Source: Microvelia longipes
Lineage: Eukaryota; Arthropoda; Insecta; Hemiptera; Veliidae
Assembly (NCBI GenBank): GCA_018340805.1
Contig: JACMZG010001913.1
Coordinates: 20,369,197 to 20,433,196, forward strand
Length of the DNA: 64,000 nt
Reading direction: 5' to 3'
Shown here: positions 2,816-63,387 of the stretch, piece by piece
Layout: each line of letters opens with the position of its first letter
How positions within the stretch are numbered: the first letter of the stretch is position 1
Notes under the pieces: model-generated
Told to the model about the DNA's origin: nothing
Databases searched by the model: none
The model's input: the letters and a program-made list of their open reading frames with translations, nothing else
Translations under genes and position numbers: made by a program

Positions 2816-3081
2816 CATGTTGTAGTATAAATTAGGATAGGTTTACTATATAGGTAAATTTAATTATTTAGTATACCACATAATTGGTTATACTAAATAA
2901 TCTTTGGGTTTATTATGGCTCCAATAGCTTACCAGAATTAGGCATTTAGAGTCCTGTTAAAACTGATATAATATTATGGCTAAAATTGCCATGTATAAGA
3001 ATTATTTTATTTATAAAATAATTCTCAGATCTTGGTATTTTGCCCCTTCTTGTAACTAATTGTTTTATTTTTCTTTTTCAG

Positions 3082-3165
3082 ACGCAGGAGCGCAGTGCCT
3101 TTAGAAAACTTACGGGCAGACAAGATAATCATTTAAAGCGACATCCAAAAAAAAGTGATGCCTAG
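3082..3165 (+). pseudogene. Possible terminal exon or gene relic (28 codons)
   Basis: A pyrimidine-rich tract ending in CAG is followed directly by an 84-base open stretch ending in TAG. The encoded peptide is basic near its end (HLKRHPKK). It has the look of a 3'-terminal coding exon and less AT-rich codons than its surroundings, but no partner exon was identified upstream and I do not recognise the protein. It could equally be a decayed fragment or chance. Confidence 0.2.
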
Positions 3166-3287
3166 ATTCAATTATTTAGTAAGTATCATCTGACTCTTTA
3201 TTAATTTTTTATTAAGGAAAAGGAAGAATTAATAGAAATTTTAATTTAATTTTATTAATAGAATTTTTTTATTATTAATGGAAGGGA

Positions 3288-4135
3288 TGTGGAGTTGCTC
3301 AAACAGGGGTTTAAGGGCCTGTTAAAGCTAATGTAATATTATGGCTAAAATTGTCAAAAATTATGGAACGGGGGTTTTAGGGGTTGTTGAAGTTAATGTA
3401 ATATTATGACTCTAATTGCCAAAATATTTGGGAACAAGGGTTTGAGGGCTGTTGATGTTAATGTAATATTATGGCTTAAATAGCCAAAAATTGTGGAACA
3501 AGGGTTTAGGGAGCTCTTGATGTTAATGTAATATTATGGCTCAAATTGTCAAAAATTGTGAAATAGGGTTCAGGGGGCTGTTGATGTTAATGTAATATTA
3601 TGACTCAAATTGCAAAAATTAGGGAACATGGGTTTAGGGGCTGTTGAAGTAGATGTAATATTATGACTAAAATTGCAAAAAATGTGGAATGGGGGATGTT
3701 TAAGTTAATGTAATATTATGGCTCAAATTGCCAAAAATTTGGAAACAAGGGTTTGAGGGCTGTTGATGTTAATGTAATATTATGGCTTAAATAGCCAAAA
3801 ATTGTGGAACAAGGGTTTAGGGGGCTCTTGATGTTAATGTAATATTATGACTCAAATTGCCAAAAATTAGGGAACATGGGTTTAGGGGGCTGTTGATGAT
3901 AATGTAATATTATGACTCAAATTGCCAAAAATTAGGGAACATGGGTTTAGGGGGCTGTTGAAGTAGATGTAATATTATGACTAAAATTGCAAAAAAATAT
4001 GGAACGAGGGTTTCTGGGGTTGTTGAAGTTAATGTTATATTATGACTCTAATTGCCAAAAAAATAGGTTCAGGGGTGCAGGGGGCTGTTATGTAATATTA
4101 TGGCTTAAAGTGCTAAAAATAAGGGAACGGATCAT
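3288..4135. repeat. Tandem repeat array, ~62-65 bp unit, about 13 copies
   Basis: The unit contains a GGGGCTGTTGATGTTAATG segment, then TAATATTATGGCTCAAATTG, then CCAAAAATTAGGGAACA. The TAATATTATG core recurs about every 60-65 bases through the block (about 13 times). Copies vary by substitutions and small indels. An isolated related copy is near 2965 and further copies occur at 4840-5480. The short plus-strand frame at 3987-4217 lies within the array and is not a gene. Confidence 0.85.
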
Positions 4136-4269
4136 TCTATCTTTTGTCAGGAAGAGAGATGCAAGTAACCCTCACAGATTGAAAATTTGGTATGCTGTTG
4201 TATTTAGGAGAGAATAATTTCTATCCTTTCCCTTCTCTATGAGACCAGTAACTCCATTTTATTACAATC

Positions 4270-5610
4270 GTTTTTTTATTTGTGACGGTTTTTTATCAAA
4301 CATAATTTTTTCCTAAAAAGGACGAATTTTGGTAATTTTTTAAATTTTGACCACCCACACAGGGGTTTACATGTAGAGATTGATTTCACTTAATTAAAGA
4401 TGATGAATTAAGTGAAACGCAGGGAGGTGGAGGGTTACTATAGTATTATTTGTGACGGTTTTTTATCAAACATAATTTTTTCCTAAAAAGGACGAATTTT
4501 GATAATTTTTTAAATTTTGACCACCCACAGGGGTTTACATGTAGAGATTGATTCACTTAATTAAAGATGATGAATTAAGTGAAACGCAGGGAGGTGGAGG
4601 GTTACTATAGTATTATTTGTGACGGTTTTTATCAAACATAATTTTTTCTAAAAAGGACAAAATATAGTAGTTTTTTTTAAAGTTTTACCACCCATAACAC
4701 CCAAAACAAAATTTTCCAGTAAAACCATCTGGGAAACTTAGTTTCCCTCCTGGATAGAATATTATACCTAGTTTTCATGAAAATCTGCAAGGGTCACATG
4801 AAAAGATGTTTGGCCATTTGCCTGATTTTAGATGAAATGGTCCAAACAGGGGTTTTGGGGGCTGTAAAGCTGATATGATATTACGGCTCAAATTTTTAAA
4901 AATAAGGGAACAAGGGTTTAGGGGGCTGTTGAAGTAATATTATGGCTAAAATTGCCAAATTTATGGAACTGGGGTTTTGGGGGTTATTGAAGTTAATGTA
5001 ATATTATAGCTTAAATGCCATACGGATCATTCCATCTTGTCAGGAAGAGAGATGTCAGGTGACCCTCACAGATTTTCTTGAAAATTTGTTATGCGGTTGT
5101 ATTCAGGAGAGAATAATTTTCTTTATAGATCTATCCTTTCCCTTCAATACGAGACCAATAACTCCATTTTATCACAATCGTCTCTTTATTTGTGATGGTT
5201 TTTATCAAACATATTTTTTTCCTAAAAGGACAAAATTTGGTAATTTTAAAATTTGACCACCCATAACTCCCAAAACAAAATTTTCCAGTAAAACCGTTAA
5301 CTGGTTTTGGACAAAAATTTTGGCCATCTGCCTAATTTGAGATGAAATGGTCCATACTGGGGATTGGGGGGTTGTTAATGCTGATGTAATATTATGTCTC
5401 AAATTGCCAAAAATTAGGGAACAGGGGTTTAGGGGCCTCTTAAAGTTGGTGTTATATTATGGCTCAAATTTCCAAAAAAATTGGGAATTGGGTTTTATAT
5501 GTAGAGATTGTTTTCACTTAATTAAAGATGGTGTAATTAGTGAAACACAGGGAGGTGGAGGAGGAAGGGTTACTATAGTATTACATATGGTTATATTCAG
5601 TTGACAGTGT
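4270..5610. repeat. Composite satellite: ~170-bp unit interleaved with the 62-65-bp unit
   Basis: A unit of about 165-175 bp beginning TTTGTGACGGTTTTTTATC is present at about 4271, 4447 and 4614, with a later relative at about 5187. It includes an inner palindrome TTCACTTAATTAAAG...AATTAAGTGAA near 4388, 4553 and 5515, and a GGGAGGTGGAGGGTTACTATAG tail. Between and after these are more copies of the short unit seen at 3288-4135. A MITE terminus (CAGTTGACAGTGTGGG) abuts the right edge at about 5588-5640. No gene. Confidence 0.8.
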
Positions 5611-10067: not shown

Positions 10068-10167
10068 NNNNNNNNNNNNNNNNNNNNNNNNNNNNNNNNN
10101 NNNNNNNNNNNNNNNNNNNNNNNNNNNNNNNNNNNNNNNNNNNNNNNNNNNNNNNNNNNNNNNNNNN
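10068..10167. other. Assembly gap of exactly 100 N
   Basis: One hundred N characters, the usual placeholder for a gap of unknown length. It falls inside the BEL/Pao pol gene, so the integrase and 3' LTR of that element are probably in the missing sequence. Confidence 0.98.
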
Positions 10168-15400: not shown

Positions 15401-15587
15401 CAACCGATTATGATTACGACAAATAAAGAAGTATTTCCAAATAATGAAACTTTTAACTGTCGACTATTTAAATATGAGTGGAATGAATGTAAACTTCTAC
15501 AATCATACGATAAATGTATTCACCCAATGGCTTTGTACGCATTATTTAAGGAATTTGGATTAATAAATGAAATAACACATGTATAAT
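15401..15587 (+). pseudogene. Densovirus NS1-like C-terminal fragment
   Basis: The plus frame is open from 15401 to the stop at 15585-15587. It ends in a segment with a Cys-rich, aromatic composition (EWNECKLL, then HPMALYALFKEFG). Its place, converging on the 3' end of the capsid gene with 60 bases between stops, is where NS1 ends in ambisense densoviruses. The upstream part is lost at the junction with BEL/host sequence. Assignment is by position and general resemblance of the tail, not by a catalytic motif. Confidence 0.65.
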
Positions 15588-15647
15588 AGTTTTAATAATA
15601 TATATTTTTAATTTATAAATACATATAATATTTTATAACATTGGTTG

Positions 15648-17447
15648 TTATTTATCATGTTGGTACTTAGTACATAAAAACCCATTAAATGTCTCAGCGT
15701 TATATTGGACACCAGGGGCCATAGTGTTACCCCATAACTGTTCGCTGTTACTAGCATTGGATTCATAAGGATATAAATATTCTGTATTTAAGGCAATATC
15801 GATTTCAGTTTCGATTTGCCATATGGCGCTAGCATTAACAAAGTCAGGACTTGTATCATTTGGAGTATTACTTTGGACGGCTAATATGCCAAAATGGACA
15901 CTTGGTTGAGCAAGCACTTTATTGTTATTAGCAAAAGTAGTAAAGTTGGTACCCTTTTCTAATAATTGGAAATATGCCGAATTGAACTGATTCAAATTGG
16001 TGTTATTATCACTATGTGAAATATTTAAATCTTCATTACCAATACTGATAGACGCATTGGTCATGTAAGCGTTGCCCGTATAATATTGGACAGTTGTTCT
16101 AGTAGTATCAGCTATAGGATCAATCAGCGGCACTATAGTTTTGCCTTTTATATAACCTACTTTAGGCTTATAAGTATAATTAATACATGGCATGTTTACA
16201 TGTTCCATGAAATTAAATGTAGTAACGTATTGATCCAGTTGTGGCCACCCACTAAGTGAATGTGAATACTTATTATATTGACTACATGAAGGAATCATTA
16301 ATCCCAAATGAAATGGTATAGAACGAATGGCGCCCAAACTGCAAGGAATATCTTTATTGATTATTTCACTATCGACATTTCCTTTAGACTGAATATGACC
16401 ATAGAGTCTAGCAGGCCAATTAACATTTAAATCAACATCTTTAATCTCATTGGTTTTTGATATTACCATTTTATTGGTATCATCTCGTTCAATTTTTCTA
16501 TTTCTAATAACCAATTTATGATTTAAACCTATAGCAGATTGACCAAATACAATTTGCGCATTATTAGCAGACCCTGTTAATGAGGTACCAGTGTCAAAGG
16601 AACATCTTACTCCTTTTGGTGTTATTTTAACACGTACCTCTTTTACATAAGAACCTGGAGGTAAATTTTCATATTCACACTTGGTAATATACGAAGATAA
16701 TAATTCAACAGGGAAACAATGTAAACTTGTCATCATAATATGTGACATATTTTGTTTTTCTTTCGTTCCGAAAGAAAACCCTTTATTACTATTTCCCCAG
16801 GTAGACATTAAACGGGTTTTTCTGTATGTAGTAGTACCTTTACGGGGGAATGAACTTCGCATTAACTGAGGTCCGGGTGCACCGCTAACCTGTAGTCCAG
16901 AACCGGATCCTGTGAGATTTCCACTTTCATTTGCAGAGCGAGGTTTTCGTGCCAAACCACTATCGATTTCATCCATGACCTGATTTAAAGTTGTATCGCC
17001 AAACCCTTGAGAGTTATCATCTGTATTGTCAAACATATCTCGATCACTTGAATTAATTTTTGATTTTTTTGATTTCGATGCTCCTAATTTCGATATGCTC
17101 AATCGCTTTCTTTTTTGTGTACCGCTTCCACTGCCTGAAGCCGTACCGATAGACATCCGTTTATATTGAGGATATATAACACCAAATACCTTTTCAAATA
17201 AATATTTCACTTCCAAGCCACTAGCACCAAGTAACGAATGCCAATTACCAGTGGTTTTAAAATCCTGAATAAACGACTTGATCGCTGTTAAATCTGCCTC
17301 TTGAATATCAGAGTCCTTTAAGGCTTGACTATATTTAATATCATGAATCCGTGCTATGTAATCGTCGGTGTCAACGGGTGTACCGGCTTGTATACTATTT
17401 CCGGGACCTAAATAATGATGTCCAGGTAGAACAAAATCAAAAGGCAT
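15648..17447 (-). CDS. VP: Densovirus capsid protein VP with phospholipase A2 motif (intact ORF)
   Basis: This 599-codon ORF encodes the structural protein of a densovirus. Near the N-terminus is the parvoviral phospholipase A2: the calcium loop YLGPGN at residues 12-17 and the catalytic HDIKY at 35-39. In virus particles this activity lets the genome leave the endosome. A Gly/Ser-rich stretch at about 104-109 and a basic KRKR at 112-115 with a further Lys-rich run could serve nuclear entry. The rest matches a capsid jelly-roll in length. The start is the first Met after a TATA box and near the terminal hairpin. No stop or frame break is present, unusual for an old viral insertion. It may be recent, maintained, or not expressed. 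Confidence 0.9.
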   Translation of the reverse strand: MPFDFVLPGHHYLGPGNSIQAGTPVDTDDYIARIHDIKYSQALKDSDIQEADLTAIKSFIQDFKTTGNWHSLLGASGLEVKYLFEKVFGVIYPQYKRMSIGTASGSGSGTQKRKRLSISKLGASKSKKSKINSSDRDMFDNTDDNSQGFGDTTLNQVMDEIDSGLARKPRSANESGNLTGSGSGLQVSGAPGPQLMRSSFPRKGTTTYRKTRLMSTWGNSNKGFSFGTKEKQNMSHIMMTSLHCFPVELLSSYITKCEYENLPPGSYVKEVRVKITPKGVRCSFDTGTSLTGSANNAQIVFGQSAIGLNHKLVIRNRKIERDDTNKMVISKTNEIKDVDLNVNWPARLYGHIQSKGNVDSEIINKDIPCSLGAIRSIPFHLGLMIPSCSQYNKYSHSLSGWPQLDQYVTTFNFMEHVNMPCINYTYKPKVGYIKGKTIVPLIDPIADTTRTTVQYYTGNAYMTNASISIGNEDLNISHSDNNTNLNQFNSAYFQLLEKGTNFTTFANNNKVLAQPSVHFGILAVQSNTPNDTSPDFVNASAIWQIETEIDIALNTEYLYPYESNASNSEQLWGNTMAPGVQYNAETFNGFLCTKYQHDK

Positions 17448-17474
17448 ACTAACTACGTAACAGCTCCGATGCCC

Positions 17475-17491
17475 TATTTATATATAAAAAC
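17475..17491 (-). promoter_or_regulatory. TATA box of the densovirus VP gene
   Basis: The minus strand has TTTTTATATATAAATAG about 30-45 bases before the VP start codon at 17447, between the terminal hairpin and the gene. Ambisense densoviruses place the VP promoter in this spot. Confidence 0.7.
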
Positions 17492-17520
17492 CACTCCCCT
17501 CCAACTTAATCACTGGGAGC

Positions 17521-17633
17521 TTGTCCCAAACATTTTATGTTTGAGCCCCCAGCACCCGCGCCATCGCCCATTACGCGGCGTGGCGCTGTTCCAGATTCAG
17601 CGCGCCGGCCCTAATTTTAAAATTAGGGCGATG
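17521..17633. repeat. Densovirus terminal hairpin, copy A (one centre orientation, truncated)
   Basis: The left stem strand includes AGCACCCGCGCCATCGCCC (17551-17569). The central segment 17570-17625 contains the GCGGCGTGGCGCTGTTCCAG portion first and the 20-bp palindrome CCCTAATTTTAAAATTAGGG (17609-17628) second. The returning stem stops after CGATG, where sequence jumps into VP coding DNA; the three bases ATG are common to both sides of the junction. GC-rich against an AT-rich genome. Confidence 0.88.
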
Positions 17634-17981
17634 CTCAATCGCTTTCTTTTTTGTGTACCGCTTCCACTGCCTGAAGCCGTACCGATAGACATCCGTTTTA
17701 TTGAGGATATATAACACCAAATACTTTTCAAATAAATATTTCACTTCCAAGCCACTAGCACCAAGTAACGAATGCCAATTACCAGTGGTTTTAAAATCCT
17801 GAATAAACGACTTGATCGCTGTTAAATCTGCCTCTTGAATATCAGAGTCCTTTAAGGCTTGACTATATTTAATATCATGAATCCGTGCTATGTAATCGTC
17901 GGTGTCAACGGGTGTACCGGCTTGTATACTATTTCCGGGACCTAAATAATGATGTCCAGGTAGAACAAAATCAAAAGGCAT
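17634..17981 (-). pseudogene. Partial duplicate of the densovirus VP 5' end
   Basis: This repeats about the first 116 codons of the VP gene at 15648-17447 in the same orientation. It starts at the same ATG (17979-17981) and has the same phospholipase motif. Small deletions near 17700-17730 throw it out of frame after residue 86 (LFEK). It then runs into hairpin copy A. The duplication also includes the promoter (17982-18060). Since the two copies are nearly identical, the event is young or dates from viral replication just before insertion. Confidence 0.9.
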
Positions 17982-18007
17982 ACTAACTACGTAACAGCTC
18001 CGATGCC

Positions 18008-18024
18008 CTATTTATATATAAAAA
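18008..18024 (-). promoter_or_regulatory. Duplicate of the VP TATA box
   Basis: Same TATATATAAATAG run as at 17475-17491, in the duplicated segment upstream of the truncated VP copy. Confidence 0.65.
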
Positions 18025-18060
18025 CCACTCCCCTCCAACTTAATCACTGGGAGCTTGTCC

Positions 18061-18198
18061 CAAACATTTTATGTTTGAGCCCCCAGCACCCGCGCCATCG
18101 CCCTAATTTTAAAATTAGGGCCGGCGCGCTGAATCTGGAACAGCGCCACGCCGCGTAATGGGCGATGGCGCGGGTGCTGGGGTCAAACATAAAATGTT
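18061..18198. repeat. Densovirus terminal hairpin, copy B (opposite centre orientation, complete)
   Basis: The outer arms (about 18061-18103 and 18160-18198) are reverse complements apart from a 2-base deletion. The central segment is the exact reverse complement of that in copy A: the palindrome CCCTAATTTTAAAATTAGGG comes first (18101-18120) and the GGCGCGCTGAATCTGG portion second. This is the flip/flop relation produced by hairpin transfer in parvovirus replication. Symmetry ends at 18198, marking the junction with the NS1-like fragment. Confidence 0.9.
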
Positions 18199-18199
18199 A

Positions 18200-18394
18200 C
18201 ATCACAAAACATCGGCACTGGTTGGATGTCCAACTGCAGTCATGCCAGACGTGGAAGTGGTCAAATCCTGGAACGAGGTGTTTGCTGATGATGATTGTTC
18301 CTTCCCCTCGGTATCCTGATTGCAAGCGTGTAAATCTAGTATGCAACTCATGAAGTTGCTCAGGAGATTCGACTGGGACGATATCATGGACCAT
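18200..18394 (-). pseudogene. Densovirus NS1-like fragment with HUH nuclease motif, overlapping second frame
   Basis: The minus frame from 18394 encodes 65 residues containing HFHVWHDCSW, matching the His-x-His metal-binding motif of the parvoviral NS1 nicking nuclease, followed by CRCF. The frame ends at the hairpin junction, where the stop is created. A second frame (start at 18387, 61 codons, ends 18202) overlaps it fully, as NS2 overlaps NS1 in densoviruses; whether this is the true NS2 is uncertain. Its strand is opposite to the NS1 tail at 15401-15587, so it belongs to an inverted copy of the genome. Confidence 0.6.
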
Positions 18395-18398
18395 TGTT

Positions 18399-19378
18399 TT
18401 GTAATGAATTAAACCAAATAAATGTGGTTAAAGAGTTACTACAAATAGAGTTTGAAATGACTGATTTGCATGATGTACTATTTTTTAGGTCTAAAGCTGC
18501 AACATGACAGAGAAAAGGGAGAACTAGTAATAAGTCAAAAACAATTTATATTAAATCTTTTAAAGAAATTTAATATGGAAGAATGTAATTCAGTAAAAAC
18601 ACCAATGGAAGTTAAACTTGAAATAGATGATAAAGGAATAGTAGGAGATTACCCTTATAGGGAAGCTATAGGTTGTTTAATGTATCTAATGGTCTCATCT
18701 CGGCCTGATTTAAGTAATGTTGTAAATTATTTCAGTCAATTTCAAAGCAGGGCCACAGAATCCCATTGGATTCATCTTAAACGTGTGTTCCGATACTTGA
18801 AAGGAACTATTGATACAGTATTAGTGTATCGGAAGCAAGTAGGGGAAGGAAGTCAGGTTAAGGAGGGGATTCTGCATGGTTATGCGGATGCAGATTGGGG
18901 AAGTGATAGAGAAACACGCAGATCAGTTTCAGGATATGTATTTAAATTATTTGGCAACACTGTTTCTTGGGCAACAAGAAAACAGCAGACCATAGCGCTG
19001 TCTTCAACAGAAGCAGAGTATGTTGCTTTATGCTCAGCTGCCTGTGAAGCAATGAGGCTAAGGAATTTGATATCGGAATTAAAATTTAATTGTAACGAGC
19101 CAACTCTCATATATGAAGATAACCAATCTTGTATTGCAATTGCTGACAGTCCTCGTGAACATCAACGAATGAAACATGTAGACATAAAGTACAGTTTCAT
19201 ACGGGAAGCAATACAGAATAACACCATTACAGTAAAATACAAGCCTTCCGCAGAACAGTTGGCAGATGTATTTACCAAGGCTCTGCCAAAAGAAAAGTTT
19301 CTGAATTTTGTAAGAAGATTAGGGTTATCTCCAAAAGGTCAAGCTGAGGAGGGGCATTGTAAGACAGCTTTACCTTGA
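18399..19378 (+). pseudogene. Copia pol fragment: end of reverse transcriptase and RNase H
   Basis: The opening part (ELLQIEFEMTDL at about 18430-18470) is the reverse transcriptase just after its catalytic YVDD, followed by a one-base frame change near 18470. The ORF at 18470-19378 (302 codons) then has FLGLKLQHD, the RNase H motifs YADADWGSD (residues 138-146), SSTEAEY (178-184), EDNQS (216-220) and HVDIKYSFIRE (from 236). The RNase H domain is complete and open. The missing N-terminus and frame change make the whole inactive. Confidence 0.9.
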
Positions 19379-19431
19379 TATATATTTATATATCAAATGA
19401 CATTTGTCAATTTCATTTTATTTTGTAATCA
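18399..19431 (+). mobile_element. Ty1/Copia retrotransposon, 3' end (pol C-terminus and start of 3' LTR)
   Basis: Coding sequence of a Copia pol starts directly at the densovirus junction and runs to the stop at 19376-19378. A purine run (GAGGAGGGG near 19350) followed by TGTAAGACAG may mark the polypurine tract and the LTR start. The LTR is interrupted at 19431 by a LINE and resumes at about 22428. All upstream domains (gag, protease, integrase, most of the reverse transcriptase) are absent. Confidence 0.85.
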
Positions 19432-19473
19432 CCACCGTTATCAATGCCTTACTTCCCACCGCCCTAGCAAAGA

Positions 19474-20831
19474 CATGAACCCTCCAAATCCTCTAAAATC
19501 CTTAGTCATCCTTCTTTGGAACGCTAACGGAGTTAGCAAACACAGACAAGAACTAAACTTACTTTTACACGAAAAAAGAATAGACGTAGCACTTATTACA
19601 GAAACCCACTTTACATCTAGATCTAATTTTACAATAAAAGACTATATTACTTACCGAACTGACCATCCTGACGATTCTTCACATGGTGGAACTGCTGTGC
19701 TAATTAGAAATAACCTATCACATTACCTAAACCCTTCCTTTCCTACTAATTCAATCCAAAGCACGTGTGTAACACTATCCTCCTCACCTTTTGATTTCAC
19801 TATTTCATCCACATACTGCCCTCCAAACCATAATATATCTAGTTTAGAATTCCAAAACCTCTTCCATTCCTTCGGACCAAAATTCATTTTGTGGAGGTGA
19901 CTTTAATGCAAAGCATCCATACTTTGGCTGCAGAGCTCGCAACAGACGTGGTCCAACTCTTCTATCCGTTGTTCTTCACAAACGCTACCAAGCTCACTCT
20001 CCCAACAAACCTACCTATTGGCCGACAGATTCCAATAAGCTTCCAGACCTGCTTGATTTTTTCATAACCTCACCTATACACAATCTCCACCCAACAGTGC
20101 AATCCCTTCCAGACCTTTCTTCTGACCATAGCCCAGTACTCCTTCAACTAGAACTACCTTACAATGTCAACCCGAAAAAACAGACGTTAATCAACGGAAC
20201 AGTAGACTGGGACTACTTTCGAACACTTATTGACGCCAGAATCCAACTAAACGTACCTCTGAAGACTAAAGAAGACATTGACTTAGCAGTACAAACAATT
20301 ACTGAAACAATACAGACTTCAATTTGGGACTCTACAACGCCTTATAGACACAAAACGGACCACAATACGTACACACCACTACATTTACGCACTTTAATAA
20401 GTCAGAAAAGAAGAGCTAGGGCGAAATGGCAACAATCACGTCTACCAACTGACAAGCAAAATTATAACAAATTAAGACATCAACTTGACTCAGCATTAAC
20501 GGAATACAATCAGAAAGTATTTTCTAACTTCACTGAAAACTTGACAGCAGCTAACAAATCACTATGGGACGCTACTAGACGCATACTAAAACAAAAAACT
20601 ATTCCTTCGCCTATCCGAAAAGCGGACAACTCATGGGCAAAGTCAGATTTGGAGAAAGCTGAAGTTTTCTCCGACTTTCTCACTGAGTTGTTCTCTACTC
20701 ACGATGATATATCCGATCCTCAAGCAACATCCCAAATTGAATCCGACCTTTCTATCCCTCTTCCTCTCTCTCCTCCACCAAAATCCTTCCATCCTTCTGA
20801 CACACAAAACACCACTATTGTGTTTTATTGA
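19474..20831 (+). pseudogene. LINE ORF2, first part: apurinic-type endonuclease
   Basis: The start at 19474 opens with LVILLWNANGVSKHRQEL and contains DVALITETHF, standard Jockey endonuclease features that nick target DNA. A frame change at about 19891 breaks the frame, after which GGDFNAKHP (from 19893) continues the nuclease. The end motif SSDHSPVLLQLE (near 20120) supplies the catalytic Asp-His pair. The frame runs on as the linker to the reverse transcriptase and stops at 20829-20831, near a short palindrome. Confidence 0.88.
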
Positions 20832-20839
20832 TACACAAT

Positions 20840-22193
20840 AAAACACCTTCCTAGAAAAAAATCACCAGGCTTTGACCTCATAACTTCCGAAATCCTTAAA
20901 CAACTCCCTAAAAAAGGCATCGTCTTCCTCACAGCTATATACAATTCAGTTCTCCGTTCCACTTACTTTCCTGACATCTGGAAGTATTCCGTAATTATTA
21001 TGATACCTAAGCCAACCAAACCTTTAGAACTTACCTCTTCCTATCGTCCTATCAGTCTCCTCCCAGTAATGGGTAAAATCCTTGAAAAACTTCTTCTTCG
21101 TCGGCTAAATCCTATTATTTACTCCCAAAACATTATACCAAACCACCAACTTGGATTCCGAGCCCAACATTCCACCATACAGCAGTGTCATCGCATAGTT
21201 GATATCATTGCTTCCTCTTTTGAGCGGAAACAGTATTGTTCAGCTGTTTTTCTCGACGAATCTCAAGCATTCGATCGCGTCTGGCATGCTGGACTGCTGT
21301 GGAAGCTCAAACCCATCCTACCTTTTACCTACTACCTTATCCTTAAATCCTACCTCTCAAATAGACATTTCCAAGTGAGCGTCGGAGCATCTCTTTGTCC
21401 TGTTAGAGCAGGAGTCCCTCAAGGTAGTATCCTCGGTCCTCTCCTTTACAATATTTATACCTCAGATCTTCCTGAACATCCTTCTACCACTCTAGCATCC
21501 TTCGCTGATGATAAATGTATCCTTGCCGTACACCCTAATCACCAAACCGCTTCCCGACTTATCCAAAACCATCTCTTTCTTCTCCAACCTTGGTTTAGGA
21601 AATGGAGGATTAAGGTCAATCAGCAGAAGAGTGCCCATGTGACATTCGCACTGCGTCACTCGAATTGTCCTCCAGTCACCCTAAATCAAGAGCTTATTCC
21701 TCAAAAAGACAACGTTACTTACCTGGGACTTGTACTAGACAGACGACTTACTTGGGGACCTCATACTAAATCGAAAAGACAACAGACAAGTAGACGCTTC
21801 AAGCTGCTAGGTCGACTACTCAACAGACACACTAAACTTTCACTCACGAACAAACTACTGATCTACAATACAATACTTAAACCTACTTGGGCTTACGGGA
21901 CTGAAGTTTGGGGCTCCGCTAAGCTTTCCAACACCAACCGCATCCAAAGATTCCAATCCATCATCCTTCGCAAAATTACAGATTCCCCCTTTTATGTATC
22001 CAATCTTATCCTTCATAGAGACCTCAACGTTCCTTATGTCCAAGAGTATATTTCTTCACGTTATAAAAAATTCCATGACACCCTACTTGATCATACCAAT
22101 CCTCTTATCCAAAACCTTTCCTCGAGAATCATTCCAGATAACCCTCCTCGCCGACTTAGACGTCAGTGGCCTAGAGATCTTTTACAAGACTAA
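20840..22193 (+). pseudogene. LINE ORF2, second part: reverse transcriptase and C-terminal domain
   Basis: After a break at about 20823-20840 the protein resumes with IKHLPRKKSPGFDLI and runs without stops to 22193. Counting from the Met at 21000, motifs are FLDESQAFDRVW (84-95, where LDVSQAFD is usual), AGVPQGSILGP (137-147) and the catalytic FADD (168-171). The remainder has the usual C-terminal segment before the 3' UTR. With two frame breaks in ORF2 this copy cannot move by itself; the long uninterrupted part and clean target duplication show it is young. Confidence 0.9.
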
Positions 22194-22375
22194 ATAATCA
22201 TGTAAAACAGTTGTTTACTGTGCATACATTGACGGACGAAATAGGCCTGGTGTACGCACGCTAAACTCTGTCCAAGCCTGAAAGTGCAGTCGCTGGACTG
22301 TTTCTTTTGTCACGACTTGCAGGCCAAAATTACTCTTTCCGCAATATCACTAGATACACTCTTGCTGTAGTTGTG

Positions 22376-22421
<46 letters not shown>

Positions 22422-49966: not shown

Positions 49967-50292
49967 GTAAATTAAACTATTTTTTCTGAGGTAGGGAGTT
50001 TAAGTTCACTTTTTTCCCTGCACAAAATTTGTTTGTAAATTAAACTATTCTTTCCCTGTTGCACAAAATGTGTTTGTAAATTAAACTATTCTTTCCCTGT
50101 TGCACAAAATGTGTTTGTAAATTAAACTATTCTTTCCCTGTTGCACAAAATGTGTTTGTAAATTAAACTATTCTTTCCCTGTTGCACAAAATGTGTTTGT
50201 AAATTAAACGTTGCACACGTTGCAAAAATGTGTTTGTAAATTAAACTATTCTTTCCCTGTTGCACAAAATGTGTTTGTAAATTAAACTATTT
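49967..50292. repeat. 41-bp minisatellite, about seven copies
   Basis: Unit TTGCACAAAATGTGTTTGTA followed by AATTAAACTATTCTTTCCCTG. The inner copies are nearly identical; one at about 50195-50225 is disturbed (ACGTTGCACACGTTGCAAAA) and edge copies are diverged. Confidence 0.93.
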
Positions 50293-52261
<1,969 letters not shown>

Positions 52262-61730: not shown

Positions 61731-61864
61731 TACTTTTTTGCCATCTAAGACCGATTTTATAAAATACTTAGCATGTTTTTAATTTTATATAATTAATAAA
61801 ACACAATATTTAAAAAAGAACTTATTTATTATACTTTGTCTATCACAATATTACAATTTATTCA

Positions 61865-61894
61865 GACGCGTTTCGGGACGTTTCCCATCTTCAG
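61865..61894 (-). ncRNA. Hammerhead-like ribozyme motif (left arm)
   Basis: CTGAAGA, U, a four-pair stem GGGA-AACG-TCCC, GAAA, then CGCGTC, giving a GUC cleavage triplet behind a two-pair helix III (ACGCGT). Exact mirror of the motif at 63214-63243. Confidence 0.5.
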
Positions 61895-63213
61895 TGTATA
61901 AATAAACTAAACTTAAATTTACTGTTGCTGTATGGAAGTGAAGGAGGTAAGGTTCTAGGGGTGGGAGGGTACTTACATCTAAGGGACAAAGAAGAAAGGG
62001 TTTTTTCCTACCTGTACTTCTGTACTAGGGATTAACTATAAGTACCTTAGGTTAACAAAAACTTAGATACTAAGATTTTATTACACTTTTGACAAATTTT
62101 ATAAACTAATTATAACTATTATAAACTAATTATACTGAAACTATTATTACAAACTAATTAACAAATTAAACTATTATGACTGAGACTATTATAAACTAAT
62201 TATAATTTGTAGTGGTTGTCTAGTTGCTAGGTGACTTATACTATATGTAGTACTTGTTATAATTATATTTAAAAAGATAAAATAAAAATCAAGGGTACTT
62301 AATGTTATTGAGGATGATATTAATCTATAACATAAGATTAATATTGTTATCTGCACTTATATTATACTAAAGAAAAATAGTTATCATTTAATATATATTA
62401 CAAGTTATGGTCATGAGTTATAAGGTTGAATTATATTAATATTATAGGCTTCTTACAAACTAATCTTAAATTAATTGTTATTATTATTGTTGTTGTTGTT
62501 TATGGTTAGTGGTTCAATCATATAGAGCCCTAATATCAAATACCCCGTGTTTTAATGAACAAATTAGATTCAATAGACAATCACCACTAGTCAAACCACT
62601 AACCATAAACAACAACAACAATAATAATAACAATTAATTTAAGATTAGTTTGTAAGAAGCCTATAATATTAATATAATTCAACCTTATAACTCATGACCA
62701 TAACTTGTAATATATATTAAATGATAACTATTTTTCTTTAGTATAATATAAGTGCAGATAACAATATTAATCTTATGTTATAGATTAATATCATCCTCAA
62801 TAACATTAAGTACCCTTGATTTTTATTTTATCTTTTTAAATATAATTATAACAAGTACTACATATAGTATAAGTCACCTAGCAACTAGACAACCACTACA
62901 AATTATAATTAGTTTATAATAGTCTCAGTCATAATAGTTTAATTTGTTAATTAGTTTGTAATAATAGTTTCAGTATAATTAGTTTATAATAGTTATAATT
63001 AGTTTATAAAATTTGTCAAAAGTGTAATAAAATCTTAGTATCTAAGTTTTTGTTAACCTAAGGTACTTATAGTTAATCCCTAGTACAGAAGTACAGGTAG
63101 GAAAAAACCCTTTCTTCTTTGTCCCTTAGATGTAAGTACCCTCCCACCCCTAGAACCTTACCTCCTTCACTTCCATACAGCAACAGTAAATTTAAGTTTA
63201 GTTTATTTATACA

Positions 63214-63243
63214 CTGAAGATGGGAAACGTCCCGAAACGCGTC
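63214..63243 (+). ncRNA. Hammerhead-like ribozyme motif (right arm)
   Basis: Same motif as in the left arm, reading outward toward TGAATAAA. The four-pair stem and short helix III suggest a minimal variant that would need pairing of two molecules to cut. Confidence 0.5.
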
Positions 63244-63387
63244 TGAATAAATTGTAATATTGTGATAGACAAAGTATAATAAATAAGTTCTTTTTTAAAT
63301 ATTGTGTTTTATTAATTATATAAAATGTGCAATTATCACAAAATCTCAGTCGAAACAACAAATTTTGTTATTAATGCATGTTTTTAA

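Follow-up and report, generated by a model that had tools for sequence, protein, structure and literature searches.

Densovirus telomeric hairpins preserved in opposite flip and flop states at a single locus of the Microvelia longipes genome

In the 64,000-nt stretch of Microvelia longipes DNA analyzed here (the window; C564:20369197-20433196), an endogenous densovirus fragment carries two copies of the viral right-end hairpin, A and B, whose central segments are fixed in opposite orientations. We consider it probable that this locus is a rearranged fragment in which at least two pieces of viral DNA with telomeres in opposite states were end-joined and inserted into the host chromosome. The insertion spans positions 15404-18400 and its features are collected in Table 1.

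Table 1. Features of the endogenous densovirus locus, in window positions.
Feature	Position	Strand	Remarks
Virus left boundary	~15403/15404		alignments with L095, L097 and L099 begin at window 15403-15404
3' end of NS-side reading frame, 60 codons to stop	15404..15586	+	adjoins VP at L095, L097 and L099
Capsid (VP) ORF, intact, 599 aa	15648..17447	-	N-terminal PLA2 domain and Denso_VP4 domain
VP promoter / inner ITR, copy 1	17448..17528		TATA-like run at ~17472-17489
Hairpin A ("flip", palindrome last)	17529..17633		core 17567-17628; broken after CGATG of the return stem
ATG microhomology between hairpin A and second VP copy	17631..17633		return arm GGGCGATGG, VP GATATGCTC, junction GGGCGATGCTC
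5' part of VP, second copy (repeats 17095-17447)	17631..17981	-	frame broken by two private 1-bp deletions
VP promoter / inner ITR, copy 2	17982..18062		identical to copy 1
Hairpin B ("flop", palindrome first)	18063..18198		complete, Y-shaped; core 18101-18162
Filler, 9 nt	18199..18207		between hairpin B terminus and inverted NS-side fragment
NS-side fragment, 193 nt	18208..18400	-	orientation reversed from the usual one; open frame on the minus strand

A first-pass annotation made from the sequence alone had described two densovirus hairpins in opposite flip and flop states at this place, and this description was confirmed. The 62-nt core of hairpin A is the exact reverse complement of the core of hairpin B, with the palindrome CCCTAATTTTAAAATTAGGG located at 17609-17628 in A and at 18101-18120 in B as annotated. 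The inverted match is exact over 87 nt in all (17547-17633 and 18096-18182), which is far beyond chance. Each inverted core closes one unit of a direct tandem repeat (~535 bp) and stands behind a VP start and promoter; copy 1 runs from 17095 and copy 2 from 17631. Aligned over 17095-17569 and 17631-18103, the two copies show 473 identities, no mismatches and two gap positions of one base each. Both gaps are private to copy 2, as L094, L095 and L096 match copy 1 at the two sites and L097 does so at the one site it covers. The lack of any substitution in 473 aligned sites together with the intact VP ORF suggests that the insertion is young.

Folding of both hairpins, proposed in the same annotation as a check, bore out only one of them. 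Hairpin B (18063-18198) folds at -61.2 kcal/mol (z -12.6) into a long stem with two side arms, but the sequence around hairpin A (17521-17640) reaches only -27.1 kcal/mol (z -4.3) and does not form the long stem; it ends 5 nt past the core and its return arm is lost. The outer stem of hairpin B is 2 nt shorter than its inner arm. We rejected the resulting 2-nt stem bubble as a viral feature, and since the close relative L093 has symmetric arms at this point in both of its telomeres, a private deletion or an assembly error is a simpler explanation for the asymmetry than inversion of the core alone. Three indels are peculiar to copy 2 and hairpin B; these, as well as single-base losses seen at L098, may be assembly errors, and the base-level detail of copy 2 is less sure for that reason. 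Less certainty at the level of single bases also follows from a 100-bp assembly gap (10068-10167) and a perfectly complementary inverted repeat of 733 nt with a 79-nt spacer (61782-63326) in the same window, the latter being either very young or a fold-back assembly artefact.

The locus is continuous with the host chromosome on both sides in the assembly (665 Mb in 1470 contigs), inside a contig of 42.9 Mb, and retroelement sequence borders the insertion on either flank. The left flank shows DUF1759, protease and weak RT matches and belongs to an element that we take to be BEL/Pao-like. The right flank contains a fragment with a weak RVT_2 match (copia-like), directly followed by a LINE at 19400-22420 that matches endonuclease and RT and contains a poly(A) run. 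An RRP8-like ORF elsewhere in the window has its closest protein at 74 % identity, and its first five named relatives are auchenorrhynchan Hemiptera (Nilaparvata lugens at 58 %, Cuerna arida, Graphocephala, Lycorma and Macrosteles), both statements referring to the best 120 of 814 matches. Tandem arrays were observed at 3237-5495 (period ~65 bp) and 49978-50301 (period ~41 bp), while a search of the window for RNA families and tRNAs found none.

Sequence comparison supports a densovirus of ambisense, homotelomeric organization as the source. Its identity is indicated by the capsid ORF, which matches Denso_VP4 (1.2e-48) and PLA2 (5.2e-11) and finds its best PDB match in the Galleria mellonella densovirus capsid (1dnv, 5.3e-15). 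The NS tail on the plus strand and VP on the minus strand converge with stops at 15586 and 15648, an order that is repeated at L095, L097 and L099; the tail shows no Pfam match and is labelled NS1 by position. One VP relative was found in the protein database (P0001, 32 % identity), and searches of the viral contigs with VP and with the NS tail gave no relative and no match, respectively. At L093, related telomeres stand at the NS side and the VP side of one element, as expected of a homotelomeric virus. An ITR of about 200 nt common to both genome ends is indicated by bases 17465-17528 (64 nt), which recur with 100 % identity at the NS-side end of L098. Apart from this, six matches elsewhere in the genome at 74-75 % identity cover nearly coincident stretches of 112-116 bp in the N-terminal region of VP (C1317:18255, C564:37692237, C564:37698020, C562:18230795, C558:64143137 and C558:64153758), and this piece may be an old amplified or possibly a retained one.

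Two junctions hold the locus together. After the ATG shared by hairpin A and VP, VP resumes from the base that corresponds to 17095, and the sequence then runs outward to hairpin B. A VP deletion breakpoint at L093 (4198/4199) corresponds to about window 17096, beside the start of the second VP copy, and may mark a fragile spot or be a coincidence. The second junction lies at 18198, where the first-pass annotation had ended its feature. This position holds as the outer base of hairpin B, but it is not the end of viral DNA, as filler and inverted viral NS-side sequence follow before the host is reached. The filler has no counterpart in the aligned loci, in which homology begins at 18208-18213 (18208 in the closest relatives L093 and L098).

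The segment 18208-18400 recurs at eight of the 28 loci fetched (L093, L095, L097, L098, L099, L109, L110 and L120) and in seven of these, all except L095, lies 0.97-1.13 kb from the inner ITR of the NS-side telomere. This recurrence inside other viral ends identifies the segment as viral, and we therefore rejected a reading of the right flank from 18199 onward as plain host DNA. In all five loci holding both parts (L093, L095, L097, L099 and L110) the segment is oriented opposite to VP, by comparison with which the window copy is inverted. On its minus strand a stretch of the form HxHxxHDC...CRC presumably recalls the HUH nuclease of NS1. The fragment has no match in Pfam, PDB or NCBIfam, the predicted fold of its product is of low confidence (pLDDT 45.6), and its open frame was discarded as coding evidence, 35 % of Markov-simulated sequences having one as well. 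Searched against the viral contigs it gave no credible relative; a 36 % match on contig L037 was taken as chance, since it lies opposite a long ORF on a phage-like contig. The HxHxxHDC pattern occurs in 25 viral contigs, none of which significantly matches VP or the fragment, and hairpin patterns returned 0, 36 and 0 stretches from the same contigs, with none of the 36 holding both the 17-mer and its reverse complement. L098 additionally shows a weak 58-bp match to the NS tail (73.8 %) in the orientation opposite to that at other loci.

The hairpins of the window belong to a large population of viral telomeres in this genome. The ITR query gave at least 71 genome matches and a query from a second lineage at least 73, many of them representing the two arms of one hairpin. 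From the listed places, 45 sequences were scanned, namely the window and L093-L136, L121 being the continuation of L099. The isomer was called from the distance between the inner ITR motif and the palindrome, which was readable in 30 of the 45 sequences and gave 32 readings, two each for the window and L099; the other 15 sequences, without a readable motif pair, were left out of the count. The distances are bimodal, with 52-69 nt in 19 readings (palindrome first, as in B) and 88-122 nt in 13 (palindrome last, as in A). This 13 to 19 split among readings from loci that may not all be independent (L119 and L122, for example, lie 24 kb apart) shows no significant isomer bias (binomial p 0.377). 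At least two viral lineages are represented, with cores GATTCAGCG (lineage 1) and CATATTATAG (lineage 2), and both isomers occur in both. Whereas the first-pass annotation held that endogenous copies usually lose such hairpins, a self-pairing palindrome of at least 120 nt persists in 17 of the 31 telomeres displayed from this genome, a count that leaves out a 125-nt microsatellite palindrome at L108. Many outer arms of lineage 1 stop at AAAATGTT or a few bases away, while L109 reaches TTTGGGACAA and L104 almost does so; this clustering suggests that the natural viral terminus lies near these sequences.

Among the 30 sequences with readings, the window alone holds a same-strand pair of telomeres in opposite states. 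L093 has one telomere per end of a single element, in state A next to NS and in state B next to VP, the NS-side state having been read by marker order as its palindrome is partly deleted. At each of L108 and L127, repeated telomere fragments share a single state and lie within microsatellite or satellite repeats. At L108 (C542:8195000-8200500, 2546-2944) a telomere and a partial telomere of the same state are separated and bordered by TA microsatellite; at L127 (C595:4638200-4639750) two like fragments of the telomere core lie ~600 bp apart beside tandem repeats of ~30 bp, an arrangement we read as a viral hairpin fragment copied within satellite-like DNA. At L099 (C558:2872000-2878000; telomere at ~2960-3160) inner ITR sequence stands on both sides of one hairpin, and the palindrome measures 201 bp compared with 123-157 bp in the other 16 hairpins. 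Judged from its sequence, this telomere looks like a head-to-head dimer bridge of rolling-hairpin replication kept in the germline, although a longer natural terminus is a possible alternative. The L099/L121 element may be recombinant or of mixed lineage, with a VP stretch (C558:2877644-2878896) 98.6 % identical to the window VP adjoining an NS tail of only 77 % identity. From the flip and flop fossils, including the window pair and L099, one might conclude that packaged genomes were not all that reached the germline, and that viral DNA still replicating, in the course of terminal resolution and hairpin transfer, was captured as well; we regard this as conceivable but lean against it.

The viral organization is familiar from free densoviruses. 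Acheta domesticus mini ambidensovirus (AdMADV) and the Lepidoptera ambidensoviruses are likewise ambisense with closely spaced NS1 and VP stops and a VP with PLA2, and share the Y-shaped hairpin with two flip/flop side arms and a TATA box in the ITR region, AdMADV also having an ITR of about 200 nt (PMC3820778). Unlike these free viruses, the element described here is a partial genome rearranged in a chromosome, and its hairpin measures 136 nt rather than 113 nt. Densovirus DNA is found in both isomeric forms, and a single genome may even carry one at each end (PMC3820778 and the accessible part of PMC12297876). The latter source describes Bemisia tabaci ambidensovirus (BtaDV), which resembles our virus in its hemipteran host, its homotelomeric genome and a core inverted between the genome ends; its endogenous copies form tandem arrays and keep part of the hairpin. 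Unlike the present locus, the endogenous BtaDV copy retains an incomplete ITR starting from 41 nt of the flip-flop palindrome, the hairpins are called I-shaped, and the accessible text describes no direct tandem pair of opposite isomers (PMC12297876). A telomere of the same kind is reported for Myzus persicae densovirus in the available portion of PMC11642819.

Rearranged integrants have been described as well. As described in PMC5978394, integrated (linear) JcDV vector DNA in Sf9 cells shows scrambled joins of NS, VP and ITR, some in opposite orientations and with short non-viral DNA between them, as at our locus, but these vectors were transfected into a cell line and the word "flip" is absent from the main text of that paper. 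Jumbled endogenous IHHNV elements of Penaeus monodon are similar in being rearranged parvovirus DNA with repeated terminal-region fragments, but their repeat units derive from 5'-terminal sequence and the excerpts available mention no flip/flop pair (PMC8982415). For AAV2, junctions cluster in one flip/flop arm, a 19-bp span holding 69.4 % of the viral junctions, and hairpin A, broken 5 nt beyond its core, fits this pattern; virus-virus recombinations were found in 18 of 100 sequences, and as the authors conclude that single-copy integration predominates, insertion of several pieces is not the rule for AAV2 (PMC3918229, as excerpted). Within the literature covered, which included few subscription journals and several papers in excerpt, we found neither opposite isomers within one endogenous locus nor an isomer count across endogenous copies.

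To arrive at the structure in Table 1, a germline cell would have been infected by an ambisense, homotelomeric densovirus, and two or more viral molecules, or copies made in successive rounds, would have contributed pieces whose right ends were in opposite flip/flop states and which were end-joined into host repeat DNA. The first piece would run from the NS1 end through VP to hairpin A, broken just past the cross-arms. The 3-nt microhomology would join it to a second right end comprising VP start, promoter and the complete hairpin B, the terminus of which was joined via the filler to an inverted NS-side piece. We infer the order of joining and the number of molecules, and also that the pieces were joined no later than integration, through host end-joining or by template switching, processes that fit the direct order, the filler, the microhomology and the inverted third piece. 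The two isomers were presumably made by rolling-hairpin replication, and given 13 against 19 of 32 readings, roughly every second encounter between molecules should bring opposite states together. As the first-pass annotation had stated, opposite isomers, a direct tandem and an inverted NS-side piece do not amount to a simple single-genome insertion. The pair also argues against copying around one circular template, because the six head-to-tail AAV2 reads described in the accessible part of PMC11575299 each carry ITRs of one state, whereas those in alternating repeats take random states; rolling-circle head-to-tail products would have all ITRs in the same state, and A and B are opposite.

The annotation had further taken the pair as proof of an intermediate of hairpin transfer, and a single replicating molecule could indeed produce it if the polymerase, on reaching the return arm of the right hairpin, switched back to VP at the ATG and recopied the end from a sister strand inverted by hairpin transfer, the intermediate then being integrated. 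One DNA lineage would be enough, the repeat is free of substitutions, the break falls within the hairpin, a place at which the replication complex halts according to a suggestion from the AAV2 study (PMC3918229, as excerpted), and the dimer-bridge-like remnant at L099 indicates that this genome may have taken up replicating forms. Rolling-hairpin replication, however, gives intermediates in head-to-head or tail-to-tail arrangement (PMC3087758, in the part available), and this mode of replication predicts neither the direct order nor the 9-nt filler nor the inverted NS piece, which are typical of end joining. No mirrored ITR, as in a dimer bridge, was found beyond the stem of hairpin B, where the sequence leaves the ITR after AAAATGTT. 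With both isomers at similar frequency among the fossils, two molecules from one infection suffice, and a viral population holding both explains the pair anyway. An isomer pair alone is no proof of a replication intermediate, and we regard a single replicating lineage as a possible but not required source of the pair and the single-molecule route as unlikely.

A two-step history after integration would give the identical sequence, if the host duplicated one integrated end in tandem and the core was then inverted in the chromosome, for instance by cruciform resolution at its 23-bp perfect stem arms. The near identity of the copies outside the core would agree with this, as would the stem asymmetry, inner GAGCCCCC being present in both copies and not inverted along with the core; given the symmetric L093 telomeres, a private 2-nt deletion accounts better for that asymmetry, two events are needed, and the repeated fragments at L108 and L127 have kept their state, which leaves such a history improbable. 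We give a slightly smaller chance still to an assembly artefact or chimeric read in which reads from the host locus were mixed with those of free virus or a near-identical endogenous copy. Dozens of related copies exist in the genome, all differences of copy 2 are deletions, several single bases are lost at L098, and the window also holds the gap and the inverted repeat described above. A 3-nt microhomology is nevertheless, as a matter of general knowledge, too short for an overlap-based misjoin, the closest match outside the locus among those listed reaches 98 % over only 171 bp, and the locus combines an intact VP ORF with a position inside a long contig. End-joining of at least two viral pieces in opposite states is consequently the reading we prefer.

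That parvovirus telomeres invert is already known from work on virions and infected cells. In this insect the germline has kept a record of the inversion, with hairpins still complete and ends readable at many loci, showing that densovirus hairpins can survive in chromosomes. Isomer ratio, terminus, breakpoint preference and the capture of dimer forms thereby become measurable from natural past infections, making this insect genome a natural archive of how a densovirus copies and inserts its ends.
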